Assembly (NCBI GenBank): GCA_946405625.1
Contig: CAMJHQ010000002.1
Coordinates: 1-64,000 of the forward strand
Direction: 5' to 3'
DNA: 64,000 bases
From: an uncultured Lachnospiraceae bacterium
GTDB taxonomy: Bacteria; Bacillota; Clostridia; Lachnospirales; Lachnospiraceae
The notes below the pieces were generated by a model. That model worked only from the letters and a program-made list of their open reading frames with translations, searched no databases and was not told where the DNA came from. The first letter of the stretch is position 1, and each line of letters starts with the position of its first letter. The position numbers and the translations under genes were made by a program. Shown here piece by piece: positions 7,128 through 15,253 of this stretch.

Positions 7128-9605
7128 CTATTTTTCATCAGACGAAACAACTGAAATATCAACAGACGCAGTTTTAAATCCGGCTGACAATATAGTGAGA
7201 CACGCTGATCCCGCTTCATAACCTGATCTTAAAATCGCTGTCGCACGTCCTCTGAAACTAACGGTTTCTCCGTCAGTATAATCATCTTCAGTTACAGGAT
7301 TACCTGATCCGAATCCGGCCAGTGATGCATTTCCGGTCACTTCAGCACTTAAAGGTATCTCTGCATCACATACCGGATTTCCTTCCGAATCAACTGCTTC
7401 TATCATGACATATATTACGTCATGCCCGTCAGCTCTCATGATTTCTTTTTCCGGAATAAGCCTGATTTCTGCCACTTCTCCTGTTGTAATAAGTTGATCT
7501 CTGCTAACCTCTTTACCGTCCGTATAGCTTACAGCCTCAACCTTTCCCGGTTCATATTCAGTATCGAAGCTGACTGAATTCGGCATCGGTTTCTCCATGC
7601 AAACAAGTTTTCTTCCCAGAGATCTGCCATTTACAAACACTTCGACTTCCTCTGCGTTAGAATAGACAACCAGCTTAACAGGATGTTTTTCATATCCTTT
7701 ATAATTCCAGTTCTTAAACACTCCCGGGAATCCCCACATAGTCATCATTTCTACCTTTCCAAAGGAATCCGGATGCATAGAATATAAATATGTATTTTTA
7801 CTTCCCCATACTACACTTCTGTATGTACCCTGAGGAAGCATATTTCCGTTTATATCAAAATCTCCGTCATTGGCGGTTCTCCACGGGAAAGGTGACCCCG
7901 GCTGAGGCATCAGAGACCAGGATCCTTTTTCAACCAAAGGATCATTTTCATCAACATATACTGCCTTTCCGATTCCTGCTTCTCCGATATAATCCCATGC
8001 AGTCCATGTAAAATCTCCGATGACATATGGCAGTCTCTCAACCAGCGGCCAGCGATAGCCTATCTGAACGGCAAAATTCTCAGATCCGAGAATTACCCTT
8101 TCCGGAAACATCTCATGATCCCGTTCATACAGGTCTTCCATATAGTTATATCCCACAACATCAAGTCCATTTGTAAAAGGCTCCGTGATTTTCTCCCATG
8201 TTGTGTCTTCCAGACCATCAGCTGAATTCTGTTCCTGACTCTGTCCTCTCATCAGAGCATCATCCAGCCCGCTCCATAACGAACAGATTCCGTTGCTTAT
8301 CGGTCTGGTTCCATCAAGTCCTATGATGGTTTCCGCAAGTCGTGTTGCAAGTGTATATCCGTTATCCAGTCCGCCTCTTTCCGGTATTTCATTACCGGTA
8401 GACCAAATGATCACCGACGGATGAATTCGGTCTCTTCTTACAAATGCAGTAAGATCCTTTTTCCAATCGGTTGCAAAAAACTGACTATAATCTCCTCCAC
8501 GCTTTGCTATTCCCCATGCATCGAAAGCCTCATCAAAAACATACATACCGAGTCTGTCACAAGCTTCTATCAAAGCTGCCGAAGGTGGATTATGTGCAGT
8601 ACGTACCGCATTAAAACCGACCTCCTTAAGTTTGCTTATTCTTCTGGCCTCCGATTCATATAGAGAGACTGAACCCAGAAGTCCGTTATCATGGTGTATA
8701 CATCCTCCCTTAAGTTTTACGGTTTTACCATTGATCTCGAGTCCGCGTACAGAATCTGCAGTGACAGTTCTAATACCAAACAGAGTACTTGCCTCATCGA
8801 CAGTTGTATTATCATCTGCAATAAAATGTGTTCTGTATATTCCAAGATTTTCAGCTTTAACCTTAACCACATACAGATTAGGACTATCCACATCCCATAA
8901 TTCCGGATTTTCAACATTCATTTCGATTCTTGCTGTTTCAGTTCTGCCTGCATTTATCTGGATAACACGCTTTACATTTCCAATAATCTCATCACTGCTT
9001 TCCTTTACAAGATCTACCGAAATCTGAGTTAAACGGTTATCCTGTGTTGCATTTTCAACTTCCACTTCAAACTCAAGAAATGCATATCCACCTGATATTT
9101 CCTTTGTACGTGCAAATATACCATCATTTACAATGTGAACCCTTGGACCGTGGCAAAGCTTGACCCCACGATATAATCCGGAGCCTGTATACCAACGTGA
9201 ATTCACATACATACTGGTATTTACAACTATCATGATCCTGTTTTCTTCGCCGAATGTCACATAATCTGTAATGTCAACGTAGAAAGGGGCATACCCATAA
9301 TGCTGATATCCGACCTTACAGCCGTTAACTTCTATCGAAGCATTCATCATTGCTCCATCAATCTTAAGACCGATATTTTCCTTCTCCCATTCCTTGGGGA
9401 TCATTACATTTTTTACATAATTGGTTATATCCCCCGTAAAATATCCGCTGTCAGACTTTGCCGGAGCATCTGGTGTTACAGGCGTTCCTATCATGCCGTC
9501 ATGAGGAAGATTTACTTCCACTCCCGGAGTCTCATCAAGCATAGCCAGAGAATCTATAAACCCTCTTCTGAATATCCACTTCTCATCCAAATTTACAAGC
9601 TGCAT
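7128..9605 (-). CDS. Glycoside hydrolase family 2 (beta-galactosidase/glucuronidase-like)
   Basis: 825 aa in GH2 order: sugar-binding jelly roll (1-165), immunoglobulin-like domain (about 170-280), TIM barrel (about 285-600), then a DUF4982-type domain (around VFVNGRSLGRK) and a further Ig-like/invasin-like C-terminal domain. The acid/base is E406 in STGNE; the likely nucleophile is E509 in ILGSEN. No signal peptide, so it acts in the cytoplasm on imported oligosaccharides. The DUF4982 subgroup is mostly beta-galactosidase, but beta-glucuronidase or another exo-activity is possible. A GGAGGG site precedes the ATG. No sugar transporter or regulator gene adjoins it. Confidence 0.88.
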   Translation of the reverse strand: MQLVNLDEKWIFRRGFIDSLAMLDETPGVEVNLPHDGMIGTPVTPDAPAKSDSGYFTGDITNYVKNVMIPKEWEKENIGLKIDGAMMNASIEVNGCKVGYQHYGYAPFYVDITDYVTFGEENRIMIVVNTSMYVNSRWYTGSGLYRGVKLCHGPRVHIVNDGIFARTKEISGGYAFLEFEVEVENATQDNRLTQISVDLVKESSDEIIGNVKRVIQINAGRTETARIEMNVENPELWDVDSPNLYVVKVKAENLGIYRTHFIADDNTTVDEASTLFGIRTVTADSVRGLEINGKTVKLKGGCIHHDNGLLGSVSLYESEARRISKLKEVGFNAVRTAHNPPSAALIEACDRLGMYVFDEAFDAWGIAKRGGDYSQFFATDWKKDLTAFVRRDRIHPSVIIWSTGNEIPERGGLDNGYTLATRLAETIIGLDGTRPISNGICSLWSGLDDALMRGQSQEQNSADGLEDTTWEKITEPFTNGLDVVGYNYMEDLYERDHEMFPERVILGSENFAVQIGYRWPLVERLPYVIGDFTWTAWDYIGEAGIGKAVYVDENDPLVEKGSWSLMPQPGSPFPWRTANDGDFDINGNMLPQGTYRSVVWGSKNTYLYSMHPDSFGKVEMMTMWGFPGVFKNWNYKGYEKHPVKLVVYSNAEEVEVFVNGRSLGRKLVCMEKPMPNSVSFDTEYEPGKVEAVSYTDGKEVSRDQLITTGEVAEIRLIPEKEIMRADGHDVIYVMIEAVDSEGNPVCDAEIPLSAEVTGNASLAGFGSGNPVTEDDYTDGETVSFRGRATAILRSGYEAGSACLTILSAGFKTASVDISVVSSDEK

Positions 9606-9782: not shown

Positions 9783-10874
9783 CTATATCAGCTGACTCAG
9801 CTGTTCTATAAGATCTCCCTTACCGGATACGGATATTTCACCGACACGGTTGCAGATTCTTTCCAGATATTCAAGCCTCTTCAGCTGGAACAAAGTCTTA
9901 TTTTCATCCATAAGCTTTGCTGTATTCATAAGTGATCTTGTTGATGCTACCTCCTCTCTTCTTTCGATCACATTTGCCTGTGCCTTCTTCTCGGCTACAA
10001 GAACAGTATTCATGATTTCCCTGATTTCACCCGGAAGTATGATATCTCTGATACCGAAGCTTCCGAACTCAACACAGAAATCCTTCTCGCCTTCGCGGAG
10101 CTTTCTGTCGAGAATCTCGCTTAACTCACTTCTTCTCTCAAGTATCTCATCCAGCTTGTAGTTTCCTATAAGCTCTCTGGATACCATCTGGATGAAGGAA
10201 TAGAGCTGATCCGTCAGATTTGTTCTGTCGGATACTGACTTCTCGGCATCTGTTATCCTGTAGTTTGTAACCATGTTGAGCCTTATACCTACCTTATCCT
10301 TTGTAAGTATCTCCTGGCCGACAACATTTAATTCTCTCCACTTCATGTCGATAACCACGGCCTTCACTTCTCTGACAACATTCCAGTAATAATACAGACC
10401 TTCACTCAGCTTATCCGTAAGCGTATTGTTGATATATATCAGAGCCTCCTCGCCCTGTCCTACAACAACCTTTGTATAATACCTCTGTGGTATATACTGG
10501 ATCATATCCTTGGTAAGCTCTTCCTGAAACTTCAGTTCCTTCATGGACAATATCTTCATATCCACCTTTTCGAAACGGTTCCAGAATACATATTCACCCT
10601 TGTTCGAAACGCCCATAAGCTTTCCGTTTATATATAAGAAACCTATCTCATCGTTCTCTATCTCATATCTGACAGTTGCATTTCTGAAATCCTCATCCTT
10701 CTCGAGAACTTCATATGGAATACCGCTGCACTTTACTTCGCCGGCAGCCTCTGTTATCTCGAGCTCATATCCTCTCTTCTTCCAGAAATTATACTTTCCC
10801 GCATTAAGTATTCTCAGGAACTTACCGTTTCTTCTGAGGAAGCCGACTTCATTATCTCTTATTATATATCTCAT
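9783..10874 (-). CDS. Slipin/SPFH (band 7) protein with triplicated N-terminal module
   Basis: 363 aa. The C-terminal part (about 170-300) is an SPFH/band-7 domain (KDKVGIRLNMVTNYRI, FGSFGIRDIILPGEI) followed by the helix that usually oligomerises (VLVAEKKAQANVIERREE). Before it are three copies of a roughly 25-residue unit of the type E-x-G-F-L-x-x-N-G-K...G-x-Y-x-F-W, near residues 8, 75 and 141. Unlike classical stomatins there is no N-terminal membrane hairpin, so it may be soluble or peripheral. It lies downstream of rtcB and the tRNA-like RNAs on the same strand. Slipins recur beside RtcB in bacterial RNA-repair loci, which supports a shared function. Confidence 0.85.
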   Translation of the reverse strand: MRYIIRDNEVGFLRRNGKFLRILNAGKYNFWKKRGYELEITEAAGEVKCSGIPYEVLEKDEDFRNATVRYEIENDEIGFLYINGKLMGVSNKGEYVFWNRFEKVDMKILSMKELKFQEELTKDMIQYIPQRYYTKVVVGQGEEALIYINNTLTDKLSEGLYYYWNVVREVKAVVIDMKWRELNVVGQEILTKDKVGIRLNMVTNYRITDAEKSVSDRTNLTDQLYSFIQMVSRELIGNYKLDEILERRSELSEILDRKLREGEKDFCVEFGSFGIRDIILPGEIREIMNTVLVAEKKAQANVIERREEVASTRSLMNTAKLMDENKTLFQLKRLEYLERICNRVGEISVSGKGDLIEQLSQLI

Positions 10875-11263
10875 CTTTATTCACCTCTTACATCTTATCA
10901 GTCATATCGATCATATCGAAATCTTTCTGCTCTATTACTTCGATATATATTTCACTCAGACATATCGGCTGATCTCTCACCCGATAATATCTGATAATCT
11001 TTTCTCATCAATTTGGGAAATGTATCCGATAGAAGATTCCCCATCAATAATCCGGAGCTTCATTAAGTACAGTCATCATATATGCTGTCTCTGACCCAAC
11101 ATATATGAGGCATGCACGATATCCTGTCGCTGCTGGGATTATATCCGGTCCTCCCCTTCTGTCCTCTAATGCCGCCTGCATTACCTGCAGACAGATCATT
11201 ATGAGGATCAGCCGGTTTGGCGGAAATCTTCTGTCTGATACTCTCTTCACGCTCCTTGCGCAA
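10875..11263. other. Non-coding stretch between the slipin gene and the tRNA-like RNA
   Basis: No convincing gene. Two overlapping minus-strand frames are open over about 200 bases but have poor composition and no ribosome binding site. A small hairpin (CTGCA/TGCAG) lies near 11180. The slipin start has an AGAGGTG site at about 10882. This may be the 3' trailer of the RNA transcript or the slipin leader. Confidence 0.5.
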
Positions 11264-11337
11264 TAAATTACCATGCTCTACCCATTAAGCTACATACCGA
11301 AGTATGGAGGGACTCGAACCCTCAACACTGGTGTTTA
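11264..11337 (-). ncRNA. tRNA-like RNA with circularly permuted tRNA order
   Basis: Read on the minus strand from 11337, each tRNA part is present in permuted order: UAAA-C-ACCA as the 3' side of an anticodon-type stem; a 5-nt variable loop GUGUU (11328-11324); a perfect T arm GAGGG-UUCGAGU-CCCUC (11323-11307); an acceptor stem CAUAC/GUAUG closed by a UUCG tetraloop (11306-11293); U8-A9; a D arm GCUU-AAUGGGUA-GAGC (11290-11275); A26; then UGGU-AA-UUUA, which closes with ACCA and UAAA. There is no 3' CCA and no anticodon. The arrangement resembles the tRNA-mimic end of bacterial YrlA-type Y RNAs. It lies between rtcB and slipin. Confidence 0.72.
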
Positions 11338-11338
11338 G

Positions 11339-11376
11339 CCGATTATCAATCGGTTTGTTAAGCTGACTGCTTAACA
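11339..11376 (-). other. Two consecutive perfect hairpins between the tRNA-like modules
   Basis: TGTTAAGC/GCTTAACA with a 5-nt loop (11376-11356) and CCGATT/AATCGG with a 3-nt loop (11353-11339). Neither is followed by a T run, so they look like structural elements of the RNA or processing sites rather than terminators. Confidence 0.6.
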
Positions 11377-11381
11377 TATGG

Positions 11382-11476
11382 ATAAGTACGTACGATATAC
11401 CGATTCCGGCACCACGGAGCAGCACTGTGGGTCTTGAACCACCGCAGCTATACTCTCATACAGTACAAATACTTAC
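11382..11476 (-). ncRNA. Second, less regular tRNA-like RNA module
   Basis: It begins 4 bases after the rtcB stop. The ends pair: GUAAGUA...GUAC (11476-11463) with GUAC-G-UACUUAU (11393-11382). Inside lies a T-arm-like hairpin GTGG-TTCAAGAC-CCAC (11442-11427), which has one unpaired base more than a canonical T loop, and a possible D arm (GTGC...GTAC around a GAATCGGTA loop, roughly 11411-11389). No clear acceptor stem can be drawn between them. The co-location with the well-formed module and the strong closing helix argue for a related RNA. Confidence 0.45.
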
Positions 11477-11480
11477 AAAA

Positions 11481-12710
11481 CTAACCCTTAAGGACACCAA
11501 CTGTCTTCATTTTTCTTATCGGACGCACCAGATCGCTCTGCTGCTCCATAACCTCATCAATGTCCTTATATGCAAATCTGCACTCCTCGGCCACATCGTT
11601 TTTCTTCGCTTTTCCAAGGATCACTCCCTGCTCATGAAGATCACGCATAACCTCTTCGGTAGTGAATCTCTGCATTGCTCCCGTTCTGGAATATGCTCTT
11701 CCGGCTCCGTGAGATGAAGATGTGAAACTGTCCGGATTTCCGAGACCTTCCACAACATAGCTGTACGATCCCATAGCTCCCGGAATAACTGCCTTATCAC
11801 CTACTCTCGCTCTGTTCGCACCCTTTCTGTGAACCCAGACATTTTTGCCGAAATGATTCTCCAGTGCCGCATAGTTATGGTGGCAGTTAATCTCCTCACC
11901 ATATATAACGTCTCTGTCCAGATATTTCTTTACAATATCTGTAACTGCCTTCTTTGCAACATCCATCATTCTGGCTCTGTTTTCAAAGGCATAATCCATC
12001 GCAAGATTCATCCAGTTTATATAGCTCTTTCCTTCTGCGGAATCTACCGGAAGAAATGCTAGTCTATGCTCCGCCGGAACAGAGCTGTAGTACATTTCAT
12101 TCAGTGCTGCTGCTTTCTTGTTGAAATAATCGCATATTGCTTTTCCGAGATGACGGCTTCCCGAATGGATCATAATGCAGAGCTTTCCGTTATCATCCTC
12201 CTGAAGCTCCACAAAATGGTTTCCTCCTCCGAGGGTACCAACCTGAAAATATCCATCTTCAAGAAGTGGGAGAAGCTCCGGATCATCCTGATATCTGTCT
12301 ATTTCCTGCATAGCTCTGTCGATACTCTCACACATTTGAGGCTCATTATGTCTTGCAGTATTTACAGGAATATTTCTCATGAAGTTTCCGATTATCGCCT
12401 GAACACCGGAACCGTTTCCTGTCATCAACTCCTTAACATCAGCCGCATCTATATCTGTATCGATAAAGTTCATACCGCATCCGATATCAACGCCTACCGA
12501 ATTCGGAATGATCACACCCTTTGTTGCGATCACTCCTCCTATCGGCATGCCCATTCCTGTATGTGTATCCGGCATAAGCGCCACCCACTTATGAATAAAT
12601 GGGAGATCTGCCAGATGCTGTGCCTGTTCTATACAGGAATCCTCTATTGTATTTATATCCTTCTGCCATATTTTCATAGGATATTTTGTACCATCAAATA
12701 AAACGAACAT
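11481..12710 (-). CDS. rtcB: RNA-splicing ligase RtcB
   Basis: 409 aa. RtcB joins RNA 2',3'-cyclic phosphate or 3'-phosphate ends to 5'-OH ends, using GTP and Mn2+. Metal and guanylylation residues are visible in order: GVDIGCGM, GTLGGGNHFVEL, HSGSRHLG, NCHHNYA, and the catalytic histidine in SSHGAGRAYSR. I start at ATG 12710, preceded by AAAGGGG; the longer frame from 12737 would bury that site. It is transcribed apart from the WYL genes, since a terminator intervenes, and is preceded by phased direct repeats. The tRNA-like RNAs and slipin lie directly downstream. No RtcA or archease gene is in the window. Confidence 0.95.
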   Translation of the reverse strand: MFVLFDGTKYPMKIWQKDINTIEDSCIEQAQHLADLPFIHKWVALMPDTHTGMGMPIGGVIATKGVIIPNSVGVDIGCGMNFIDTDIDAADVKELMTGNGSGVQAIIGNFMRNIPVNTARHNEPQMCESIDRAMQEIDRYQDDPELLPLLEDGYFQVGTLGGGNHFVELQEDDNGKLCIMIHSGSRHLGKAICDYFNKKAAALNEMYYSSVPAEHRLAFLPVDSAEGKSYINWMNLAMDYAFENRARMMDVAKKAVTDIVKKYLDRDVIYGEEINCHHNYAALENHFGKNVWVHRKGANRARVGDKAVIPGAMGSYSYVVEGLGNPDSFTSSSHGAGRAYSRTGAMQRFTTEEVMRDLHEQGVILGKAKKNDVAEECRFAYKDIDEVMEQQSDLVRPIRKMKTVGVLKG

Positions 12711-12767
12711 AACTATTCCCCTTTCGATTCTCAGCACTCACTTCTATCTTCTGTTTTGTTTTTTATT

Positions 12768-12821: not shown

Positions 12822-12903
12822 ACATAAGATATCATCTGCGACATTTTTCTTCATTTCAAAAAAGCTGCGAACCGATAAATCATATAAAAAATTTCATCCA
12901 AAC

Positions 12904-12941
12904 AAAAAAGATATCGACCCGCTATGCAGATCGATATCTTT
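12904..12941 (-). terminator. Terminator overlapping the end of the first WYL gene
   Basis: AAAGATATCGA and TCGATATCTTT are exact inverses; on the minus strand the hairpin ends in a T run. The WYL stop codon (12922-12924) lies in the loop, so the last few codons are part of the hairpin. It separates the LysR-WYL-WYL transcript from rtcB. Confidence 0.85.
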
Positions 12942-13893
12942 GCTTTTTAAGTCTTTCCTTCAACTGTTTCAAGAATCTTTCGCTTCCGATAACCTTTACC
13001 ATCGGACCGAATGAAAGTATGTTTATCAGCAGCTCCGTTTCATTTCCCTGTCCGTAAAAGATCTCACATTTATAAATCTCTTTTGTTGTACCGTCAAAAT
13101 CATCATCTCTTTTTTCCACATAACGAGATGTGTTCTTTCTGTAGTTTGCAAACTGAAGCATGGCTCTCTCGAGTGCCTTTCTCTCGGTTTTGATCAGCAC
13201 TGTAACAGGTTCCTTCATGTACTCCCTCTCTAAAAGCCTGTCAACATCCGGACGCTTATCCCTGCTGATATAACGTCCTGTAGTTTTCACCATAACAACC
13301 TTACCGAGATTTATCTGATACAGTTTTTTCTCAGACTTCTCTTCCACACCATATATTCTGATGCAGTCATTTTTAATAGAGTATTCCAGCCTGCACGGGA
13401 TGAAGTAATGTCTTACTCTCTTACTCGGTATCGGATTATACTCTATATCCAGCACCTCATTCTTCCTTATCGCCTCTACGACTGTGCGGAAGAATTCCCG
13501 ATACTTATCATCGCTGTAATCATCTCCGTCCAGGAAAATGTCCGAATAGCATAAATCCTCCTGCCGGAATATCGGCTCAACCTCCGACAGCTGCTCCACT
13601 AACCCCTGAACCTCTTCCTGCTCCAGGAAAAGGTTTATTCTTTTATCCATCAGGATTGTCTTCAGCCATGACTTCTGATAAGACGTCAGCGGGATCACCG
13701 GATTGGGTCGAGCCTCACCGAAGAACTCCCACACATCATCCTTAAGCTTCGGAAGCAGGAACAGCATAGATTCGCCGTAGCCCTTCTCTCGGATGATCTC
13801 GGTTATCTCTTTATCTGTAATCTTTCCGTAATCTGATAAGAGCCTGTATATTATATTGTAATAGCATCCGTATATTTCCGAAAAAATCCTCAT
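12922..13893 (-). CDS. WYL-domain protein
   Basis: 323 aa. The centre (about residues 135-220) has a WYL fold: a long beta segment LDIEYNPIPSKRVRHYFIP followed by RLEYSIKNDCIRIYGV, where the family's W/Y/L-type ligand residues sit, and a C-terminal WCX-like extension. The N-terminal 130 residues are helical with no clear HTH. WYL domains sense nucleic acids or nucleotides and are common in RNA-repair, CRISPR and phage-defence loci. It is 7 bases downstream of a second, larger WYL gene, so the two products probably work together to control rtcB. Confidence 0.75.
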   Translation of the reverse strand: MRIFSEIYGCYYNIIYRLLSDYGKITDKEITEIIREKGYGESMLFLLPKLKDDVWEFFGEARPNPVIPLTSYQKSWLKTILMDKRINLFLEQEEVQGLVEQLSEVEPIFRQEDLCYSDIFLDGDDYSDDKYREFFRTVVEAIRKNEVLDIEYNPIPSKRVRHYFIPCRLEYSIKNDCIRIYGVEEKSEKKLYQINLGKVVMVKTTGRYISRDKRPDVDRLLEREYMKEPVTVLIKTERKALERAMLQFANYRKNTSRYVEKRDDDFDGTTKEIYKCEIFYGQGNETELLINILSFGPMVKVIGSERFLKQLKERLKKQRYRSA

Positions 13894-13900
13894 ATGCCAC

Positions 13901-15238
13901 CTACTCTATATCATACATTTCAAATAATCTTTCTATATCTCCAAAGAACTTGTCCCTGATCTTCGTCAGCTCCCGTCCCTTCTCCATATCGGAATTCATC
14001 GAATAAAATCTTATATCCTCAATCCGTCCGATAAATGTACGCAGCCACGGAAACATCTCATTCACATCAAAGACTACATTTTCATACAGATATGTCCCCT
14101 CCGAAAGCTTCGTTAATGTCCCGTTCTTACCTTCTTTTCTGATCCTTGTCACAATATAGCTCTCGGACACTTCATTTATATGTATCGTCATTTCTATCTT
14201 CTGGCGATAACTTTCCTTCAGCCCGGATGTAAATGATGCATTCCATACAAATCCCAGATTTCTGTCCAGAATTTCCCGTATTTCTTCGGCATCATATGTC
14301 CTGCTCTCTGAATCCTCTTCACTCTTCGTATCAGCATCCATGCTGACCTTTTTAATCTGATCGAGTCTGAGAACACTGAAACGTCCCTTCTCACCGACAT
14401 CATATAGAACCACATAGCGTCTGCCTGTTCTGTAACTTACAACGATTCTGACAGGAAGCGCCGTAAGCTGATGACCGCTTTCTTCCTTAAGATTTGACGC
14501 AGCTGTGAAGGTCATCCTGTTACCCTCTTTGATACCCTCAAATATCCGATACAGTATCTCATCCTCCAGACAAAACTCCGGAAAGCTGTGTTTCACTCGG
14601 AAGGTGTCATTTGACAGATCCTCCCTCTCCATGATTGAATAACCCGCAAATCCGAAGGGATACCAAAGCTGAAAGAATCTGATCGCATCATACAGTCTCT
14701 CGGGATCATCCTTAAGAGCATTCAATACTTCCGCCTGCGACAGCATTTCCGAAAGCGTTACATTTCTCTCATAGTAAATTGTACGTCCGCTCTTAATCTG
14801 CCTGAGTATTCCCTCTTCCTCAAGCTCCTTGCATTTTCTCCTGACGATCTGCGAATCGCAGACTATTCCGAACCTTCCGCTCAACTCATCCGTCAATTCA
14901 TCAACCGTATGCTGAGTCGAGGTCAGATCCAGCAGATGGAAAAAAAGCGTAGCATCATTATCCGTAAAGCTCCTTGTCTGCCATACCTTATAGAGAGGAT
15001 TTGTTTCAAGCAGATTCGGAGTCACCTGAAGCGACAGGTTCTTCTCGGATGTAGCATCGGAAATGTCCTCGCACACTATATCTCCGAGCCAGTCCGTAAT
15101 ACGTCTTCTCTCATCATCATATGTTCTGGCACTCCTTCCGGTAAAATCATTTCTGCTCTTAAAACCGTATACGAAGAAATCCCTGACATAATCTCTGCAT
15201 TTATCAAAATTTTTGATCAGCTCCTGAAATTCCGACAT
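13901..15238 (-). CDS. WYL-domain transcriptional regulator
   Basis: 445 aa. It has a winged-helix segment near residues 100-165 (TVDELTDELS...VRRKCKELEEEGILRQIKSGRTIYY pattern, given here in parts), then a WYL domain (about 245-315, with the GRRYVVLYDV core) and a C-terminal WCX-like region. ATG 15238 is preferred over an in-frame TTG at 15247 because AGGA lies about nine bases before it. The gene starts 15 bases after the LysR stop, so LysR and both WYL genes form one transcript ending at the terminator at 12904-12941. Likely a sensor-regulator of the RtcB locus; target sites unproven. Confidence 0.78.
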   Translation of the reverse strand: MSEFQELIKNFDKCRDYVRDFFVYGFKSRNDFTGRSARTYDDERRRITDWLGDIVCEDISDATSEKNLSLQVTPNLLETNPLYKVWQTRSFTDNDATLFFHLLDLTSTQHTVDELTDELSGRFGIVCDSQIVRRKCKELEEEGILRQIKSGRTIYYERNVTLSEMLSQAEVLNALKDDPERLYDAIRFFQLWYPFGFAGYSIMEREDLSNDTFRVKHSFPEFCLEDEILYRIFEGIKEGNRMTFTAASNLKEESGHQLTALPVRIVVSYRTGRRYVVLYDVGEKGRFSVLRLDQIKKVSMDADTKSEEDSESRTYDAEEIREILDRNLGFVWNASFTSGLKESYRQKIEMTIHINEVSESYIVTRIRKEGKNGTLTKLSEGTYLYENVVFDVNEMFPWLRTFIGRIEDIRFYSMNSDMEKGRELTKIRDKFFGDIERLFEMYDIE

Positions 15239-15253
15239 AGAAATCAATCCTCA

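Follow-up and report, generated by a model that had tools for sequence, protein, structure and literature searches.

Between an rtcB gene and a slipin gene, the 64,000-nucleotide stretch of Lachnospiraceae DNA analysed here (the window) carries a circularly permuted tRNA-like module (positions 11264-11337, minus strand), which arm-by-arm reading, Rfam and covariation confirm as a real, conserved and covarying tRNA mimic. The element was shown to be conserved and to covary in front of slipin genes, whether or not rtcB is also there, and in most cases WYL-type regulators are close by; to judge from sequence conservation the module is one domain of an RNA of approximately 455 nt. The best explanation overall, to which we assign a probability of about 0.55, is a YrlA-like tRNA mimic that is partnered with slipin and not with Ro60, in a WYL/RtcB RNA-repair locus.

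The permuted module and the RNA around it

Read 5' to 3' on the minus strand, the module consists of the 5' strand of a half-anticodon stem (ACCA, 11332-11329), a variable loop of 5 nt (GUGUU, 11328-11324), a T arm (GAGGG-UUCGAGU-CCCUC, 11323-11307), an acceptor hairpin (CAUAC-UUCG-GUAUG, 11306-11293), U8-A9 (11292-11291), a D stem with one U-G pair (GCUU/GAGC, 11290-11275), A26 (11274) and the 3' strand of the half-anticodon stem (UGGU, 11273-11270). All arms could be placed, and the module corresponds to a tRNA that is opened at the anticodon and sealed by UUCG at the acceptor end, which confirms the circularly permuted tRNA-like RNA proposed for this site in an earlier note. That note also had all lengths following tRNA numbering, which holds only in part, as the acceptor stem has 5 bp and that of tRNA 7 bp. 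It rightly set the module apart from ordinary tRNA genes: their arm order and anticodon loop are missing, and neither ARAGORN nor Rfam at threshold reported a tRNA at the module. When folded in isolation, the 91-nt module has a z-score of -0.94, with 34 of 200 shuffles folding equally well, and its MFE structure pairs the acceptor strands with other partners; a 457-nt stretch around it beats 100/100 shuffles (z -4.57), and the permuted form is absent from the MFE folds of both.

The extent of 11264-11337 originally given for the element proved too narrow, as the likeness to two other loci (L050 and L051) in a three-way alignment spans about 11020-11476 on the minus strand (approximate ends, drawn from conservation), which is about six times longer. 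L051 is without an rtcB match and has a promoter-like box immediately 5' of the RNA, which suggests that the 5' border in the window lies near 11476. Motif search and X:X' pairing delineate a 5' domain core of the form GGUGC-X..X'-GUAUNCC (window version at 11394-11413, minus strand); the X:X' pair is formed in 55/55 distinct motif-bearing sequences (C-G in 45, G-C in 9 and G-U in 1), counted with a search pattern that restricted X to C or G and left X' unrestricted. A hairpin with a T-loop-like loop (11418-11449, minus strand) is located immediately 5' of this core. On the 3' side, the alignment contains the motif GGAUACCG, which takes the form GGAUAUCG in the window (11114-11126, minus strand) and GGATACCG at the corresponding site in L050 and L051, and a hairpin with an RGUCAGAG loop (11076-11108, minus strand), the stem of which displays two-sided changes across the three sequences by eye. 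GGATACC is found 40-500 nt 3' of the first T arm in 59/86 loci (drawn from the best 80 of 563 slipin relatives plus 12 same-family genomes); the window, with GGATATCG in its place, is one of the 27 loci without the exact motif.

A scan of L038-L049 against Rfam at E 0.1 assigned no known family to the remainder of the RNA, and returned matches to YrlA, tRNA, tRNA antisense (Plastid-ycf2) and, weakly, BSnc120 and tmRNA only. A short version of the RNA exists in L046 and L098, which lack the tRNA-like domain but retain slipin together with the motifs on the 5' and 3' sides, hence this domain is not always needed. Some Lachnospiraceae loci, including L039, L040, L059 and L061, have two further elements 3' of the permuted module, namely a hairpin that resembles an anticodon arm and another T arm.

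Conservation, covariation and gene neighbourhood

The window slipin was identified in 12/200 genomes of the same family, 7 of which have a YrlA match 265-399 nt 5' of slipin on the same strand, and the scan of named genomes contributed the best 80 out of at least 563 relatives of slipin that were confirmed. The resulting 92 upstream regions (80 named and 12 same-family) were all found via slipin, and 86 of them contain the T-arm motif; it is missing in L046, L058, L070, L095, L098 and L129, with a searchable upstream sequence of just 66 nt in L070 and 223 nt in L095. Within 1000 nt upstream of slipin, the motif is present on the same strand in 74/78 named loci (from the best 80 of 563) and on the opposite strand in 0/78, and it was found in 10/574 control windows elsewhere.

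Covariation was assessed on the 63/92 upstream regions that have the T-arm motif and a D arm recognised by pattern, from which L048, L119 and 4 duplicates were removed before 57 cores were aligned; the 29 regions outside the set include the majority of the Oscillospiraceae-type loci, where the D arm is divergent. In the 57 cores, 90.5% of cells are paired (65.0% upon shuffling), two-sided changes occur at 16/19 pairs, and the score of 0.617 (0.160 shuffled) is reached by 0/500 shuffles. Controls with slid partners score 0.209 at most, a comparison biased in favour of the structure, as it was drawn on the same alignment. The inner T/D pairs prove little because the T and D motifs were selection criteria; the acceptor and permuting stems lie outside these criteria, and the half-anticodon (permuting) stem alone scores 0.715 (0.185 shuffled; 0/500 shuffles). 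The compensatory changes on which the earlier note had made its reading depend are present, permuting stem included, and conservation in rtcB/slipin/WYL loci is likewise supported.

The slipin (9783-10874, minus strand) belongs to the Band_7 (SPFH) domain proteins (PF01145, E 5.1e-29; fold-based stomatin match, E 4e-15), and rtcB (11481-12737, minus strand) encodes an RNA ligase (PF01139, E 2.2e-109). On the same strand are regulator A (12922-13893), the homologues of which have WYL and/or WCX matches, and regulator B (13901-15247), the homologues of which have WYL matches; the best homologue match to Pfam WYL has an E of 7.8e-9, and the window's own regulators A and B have no WYL match themselves. 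Among the named loci (best 80 of 563, some on short contigs), the two regulators are found in 56 and 60 of 80 and RtcB-family matches in 59-60 of 80, and in many loci the regulators are on the opposite strand. The rtcB gene lies before the RNA in loci of the Lachnospiraceae type, and loci of the Oscillospiraceae type encode an RtcB paralogue after slipin. No RtcB match at E 1e-8 was obtained in 16 of the 48 slipin loci (from the best 80 of 563) that are fully flanked by about 6 kb on each side, and 14 of these 16 keep the T-arm motif; RtcB is a frequent, not a constant, neighbour of the RNA, and in a change to the reading of the earlier note, the RNA can occur without a nearby rtcB. As all 92 upstream regions were found through slipin, they test dependence on RtcB and not on slipin. 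Upstream of rtcB and the RNA lies a promoter-like or operator-like motif, TTCGCANCTTTTTT (12858-12871, minus strand); TTCGCANCTTTT was found in 56/90 upstream stretches (best 80 of 563 plus 12), by eye at near-constant spacing to a -10-like box.

Specificity and distribution

R1, a covariance model built from the aligned cores, scores 68.4 bits on the window and was used to search the 200 same-family genomes without anchoring on slipin, which yielded 18 matches of at least 50 bits, 9 of them at slipin loci. Other matches lie beside rtcB with no slipin nearby (G151, a genome that is 72% complete), adjoin a TROVE-like/TerD gene (G002, G160, which is of the same genus and without slipin, and contig 31 of the window's own genome, G000), a protein that is TerD-like by eye and has no Pfam match (G194) or a DUF2828/DUF7788 gene (G020), or are situated amid ORFs named by eye as transposase-like (G092). 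The matches in G142 (51.8 bits) and G117 (50.1 bits) were rejected as tRNA-gene clusters or junctions, and the lower-scoring L147, L148 and L149 turned out to be tRNA junctions on checking. Tandem tRNA-gene junctions share the arm order of the permuted module and have R1 scores as high as 51.8 bits, and some match is found in 200/200 genomes at E 0.01, so that R1 alone is not decisive near 50 bits; the contig 31 element (50.9 bits) and that of G068 (52.7 bits) fall into this zone of 50-52 bits and rest on context, and for some permuted elements the R1 and YrlA scores overlap the tRNA-junction background. With the YrlA model, 94/200 same-family genomes pass at E 1e-4, and a cut-off with this model was rejected as the only criterion, as 20 of 29 loci (L009-L037) coincide with tRNA genes: in 19 of these, the YrlA match is flanked or overlapped by a pair of them, and in L019, where the contig ends, by a single one. 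Tandem tRNA-gene junctions, with E of about 1e-7 to 1e-5 in these 20 loci, can be mistaken for Y RNAs when Rfam RF02553 is used.

The earlier statement that the window contains no Ro60 gene extends to the assembly (97.8% complete), where PF05731 and PF11443 have no match, but has to be qualified by a TROVE-like/TerD gene on contig 31, the product of which has a TROVE-like fold in a low-confidence model. On this contig (L008), a second permuted tRNA mimic was seen at 8687-8794; after it come another copy of its flanking motif and the TROVE-like/TerD gene, and an rtcB paralogue lies about 4 kb upstream. The L155 protein, with relatives in L111, L113 and L125, was considered as a Ro60 and rejected, being DUF2828/DUF7788 by Pfam; an alignment of the four proteins gave no solved-structure match at E 0.1.

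In the wider phylum, slipins of the window type were detected in 7/398 genomes at E 1e-40. By motif or R1, the RNA was found at L157, L158, L161 and L163 and was not seen at L160 (whole match) and L162 (partial match), though slipin is present there; a T-arm match in L162 was discarded as part of an ordinary tRNA by eye. Two tandem permuted modules were seen by eye 5' of slipin in L163, where R1 listed one. A plasmid collection held 9 records with a slipin relative, and four were examined (L164-L167). In Photobacterium (L166, 4662-4803), the 5' core and two tRNA-like units of ordinary arm order precede slipin-rtcB, and in Burkholderia (L165, 4205-4277) one such unit does; ARAGORN left the anticodon undefined in two of the three units and assigned the other to tRNA-Met. 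The Subdoligranulum record (L167) carries an Oscillospiraceae-type RNA, and that of Escherichia coli (L164, 4660-5000) a T arm and a hairpin upstream of slipin, with no rtcB match. This 341-nt stretch has matches in 1624/5426 E. coli genomes, and in 8 of these, the matches listed, slipin is the only gene annotated under it. Among viral slipins, none was confirmed.

Interpretation and comparison with known systems

In the preferred reading, the YrlA-like mimic would be a structured noncoding RNA, about 455 nt in length, the central domain of which reproduces the tRNA elbow, D/T arms and acceptor side and has its ends at the anticodon stem. Upon damage to tRNA or translation, it would be expressed along with slipin, and with RtcB at loci that encode it, under the control of WYL regulators. 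By analogy with Y RNA, slipin oligomers would grip the RNA by its conserved 5'/3' core and display the tRNA mimic, the SPFH protein filling the place of Ro60 in YrlA particles. The tRNA-like domain could then either lure anticodon nucleases and tRNA enzymes or dock broken tRNAs for resealing by RtcB. Together, the conserved RNA and its protein partner may constitute an undescribed ribonucleoprotein for the handling of broken tRNAs. We infer the RNA-slipin partnership from linkage, and likewise infer RNA-protein binding, expression and the decoy or dock role.

A different and rather unlikely reading is that of a cis-acting leader of the rtcB-slipin (or slipin) mRNA, which would switch slipin expression and sense tRNA enzymes or nucleases by its tRNA-like domain. 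The RNA does lie before slipin, and in 24/86 loci (best 80 of 563 plus 12) the first T arm follows TTCGCANCTTTT within 350 nt, but the gap between RNA and slipin varies widely across loci, G151 has the RNA with no slipin nearby, and in L113, L118 and L123 mutually similar ORFs of 219-255 codons (stop to stop) separate the two, so that the RNA is more than just a leader of slipin. That the window RNA is a classical Y RNA, bound in trans by the TROVE-like/TerD protein of contig 31, appears less probable again: the same genome encodes this protein beside the second permuted mimic, and a protein of the DUF2828/DUF7788 type, bearing a vWA-type DxSxS motif, stands immediately before the RNA in 3/80 slipin loci (best 80 of 563), yet the basal stem of YrlA is unmatched in the window RNA and 11 of the 12 same-family genomes with the window slipin have no TROVE-like/TerD protein at E 1e-20.

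An RNA specific to RtcB, as its substrate, guide or ligation product, would be close to the reading of the earlier note (a substrate decoy, sensor or guide for RtcB, slipin or WYL), and is in keeping with the position directly after rtcB in the window and many Lachnospiraceae loci and with the rtcB and RNA of G151; the 14/16 fully flanked loci that keep the T-arm motif without an RtcB match nearby make this quite improbable. Chance, or relics of tandem tRNA genes, might account for an arm order that tRNA-gene junctions share, with R1 scores as high as 51.8 bits and YrlA E-values of about 1e-7 to 1e-4, but this is very hard to reconcile with the 68.4 bits of the window, beside which no tRNA was called, with ARAGORN calls in just 3/92 slipin-upstream regions and with a covarying permuting stem; it was ruled out by covariation (0/500 shuffles for the whole core and for the permuting stem) and the T-arm control counts.

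A bolder proposal, which we regard as speculative and rather doubtful, is that RtcB, slipin and the mimic RNA assemble into a vault-like RNP of bacteria, in which a soluble SPFH shell or ring would hold a Y-RNA-type mimic for tRNA repair. The permuted tRNA would then stem from zipped halves of two tandem tRNA-like units, with the unpermuted form retained in the Photobacterium and Burkholderia slipin-rtcB loci, and a single tRNA-mimic module would be interchangeable among SPFH, TROVE-like/TerD and DUF2828/DUF7788 proteins. The functions of Y RNAs and vault RNAs, which are tied to ring- or cage-forming proteins, have long been puzzling. If the slipin-partnered YrlA-like mimic is real, a widespread Y-RNA-type mimic with an SPFH protein and RtcB would offer a small, genetically tractable locus for this question, RtcB would gain a possible substrate handler, and the related slipin with its T-arm-bearing upstream stretch in E. 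coli may allow tests in a model organism. An incomplete literature search found no paper joining rtcB, a tRNA-like RNA and slipin, and earlier publication is possible.

Kinship with the YrlA module, as suggested earlier, is supported by an Rfam YrlA (RF02553) match of 43.5 bits over the tRNA-mimic part (E 2.3e-8 in 651 nt; model positions 17-92 of 114), and both RNAs have T, acceptor and D arms in a permuted, tRNA-like arrangement. However, the score is below the gathering threshold of 69 bits, the match excludes the basal Ro60-binding stem (positions 1-16 and 93-114), YrlA measures 90-150 nt compared with about 455 nt by conservation for the window RNA, and the neighbour is slipin in an assembly without a TROVE gene match. 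According to the available excerpts, YrlA can sit in rtcB operons (PMC8394870, PMC7790460), its stem holds a Ro60-like ring, its tRNA-like domain binds PNPase and it is modified by DusA and TruB (PMC8394870), and one role suggested for YrlA of S. Typhimurium is inhibition of the anticodon nuclease (PMC7790460). Like the window RNA, tmRNA embeds the T arm and acceptor side of tRNA in a larger molecule, as one of these excerpts describes (PMC8394870). The window RNA differs in that a hairpin loop closes the acceptor, leaving no CCA end, and in that the D arm is retained, and Rfam listed no tmRNA match at the window element.

The eukaryotic vault is composed of MVP, vault RNA and the TROVE-bearing TEP1. 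Slipin aligns with 5 of 10 MVP rows over residues 2/3-324/325, and its predicted model has beta strands at the N-terminus, with repeated beta units that precede the SPFH domain. In contrast to MVP, only three N-terminal beta units are predicted, and the SPFH domains of stomatin and prohibitin outscore MVP. In P. aeruginosa, the SPFH gene of PaFlo8 is located in the rtc locus, as is the case here, in another phylum and with RNA unmentioned in the available part of the source (PMC13086221). In Anabaena, the excerpted data show rtcB up 77-fold and the slipin alr0740 up 42-fold without the repressor TrcR, and translation antibiotics lift the repression that TrcR exerts on rtcB and on the trn tRNA operon (PMC10272220). 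A role of the window locus in translation stress would fit this co-regulation and the presence of an SPFH gene in the P. aeruginosa rtc locus, as far as the excerpts go (PMC10272220, PMC13086221).
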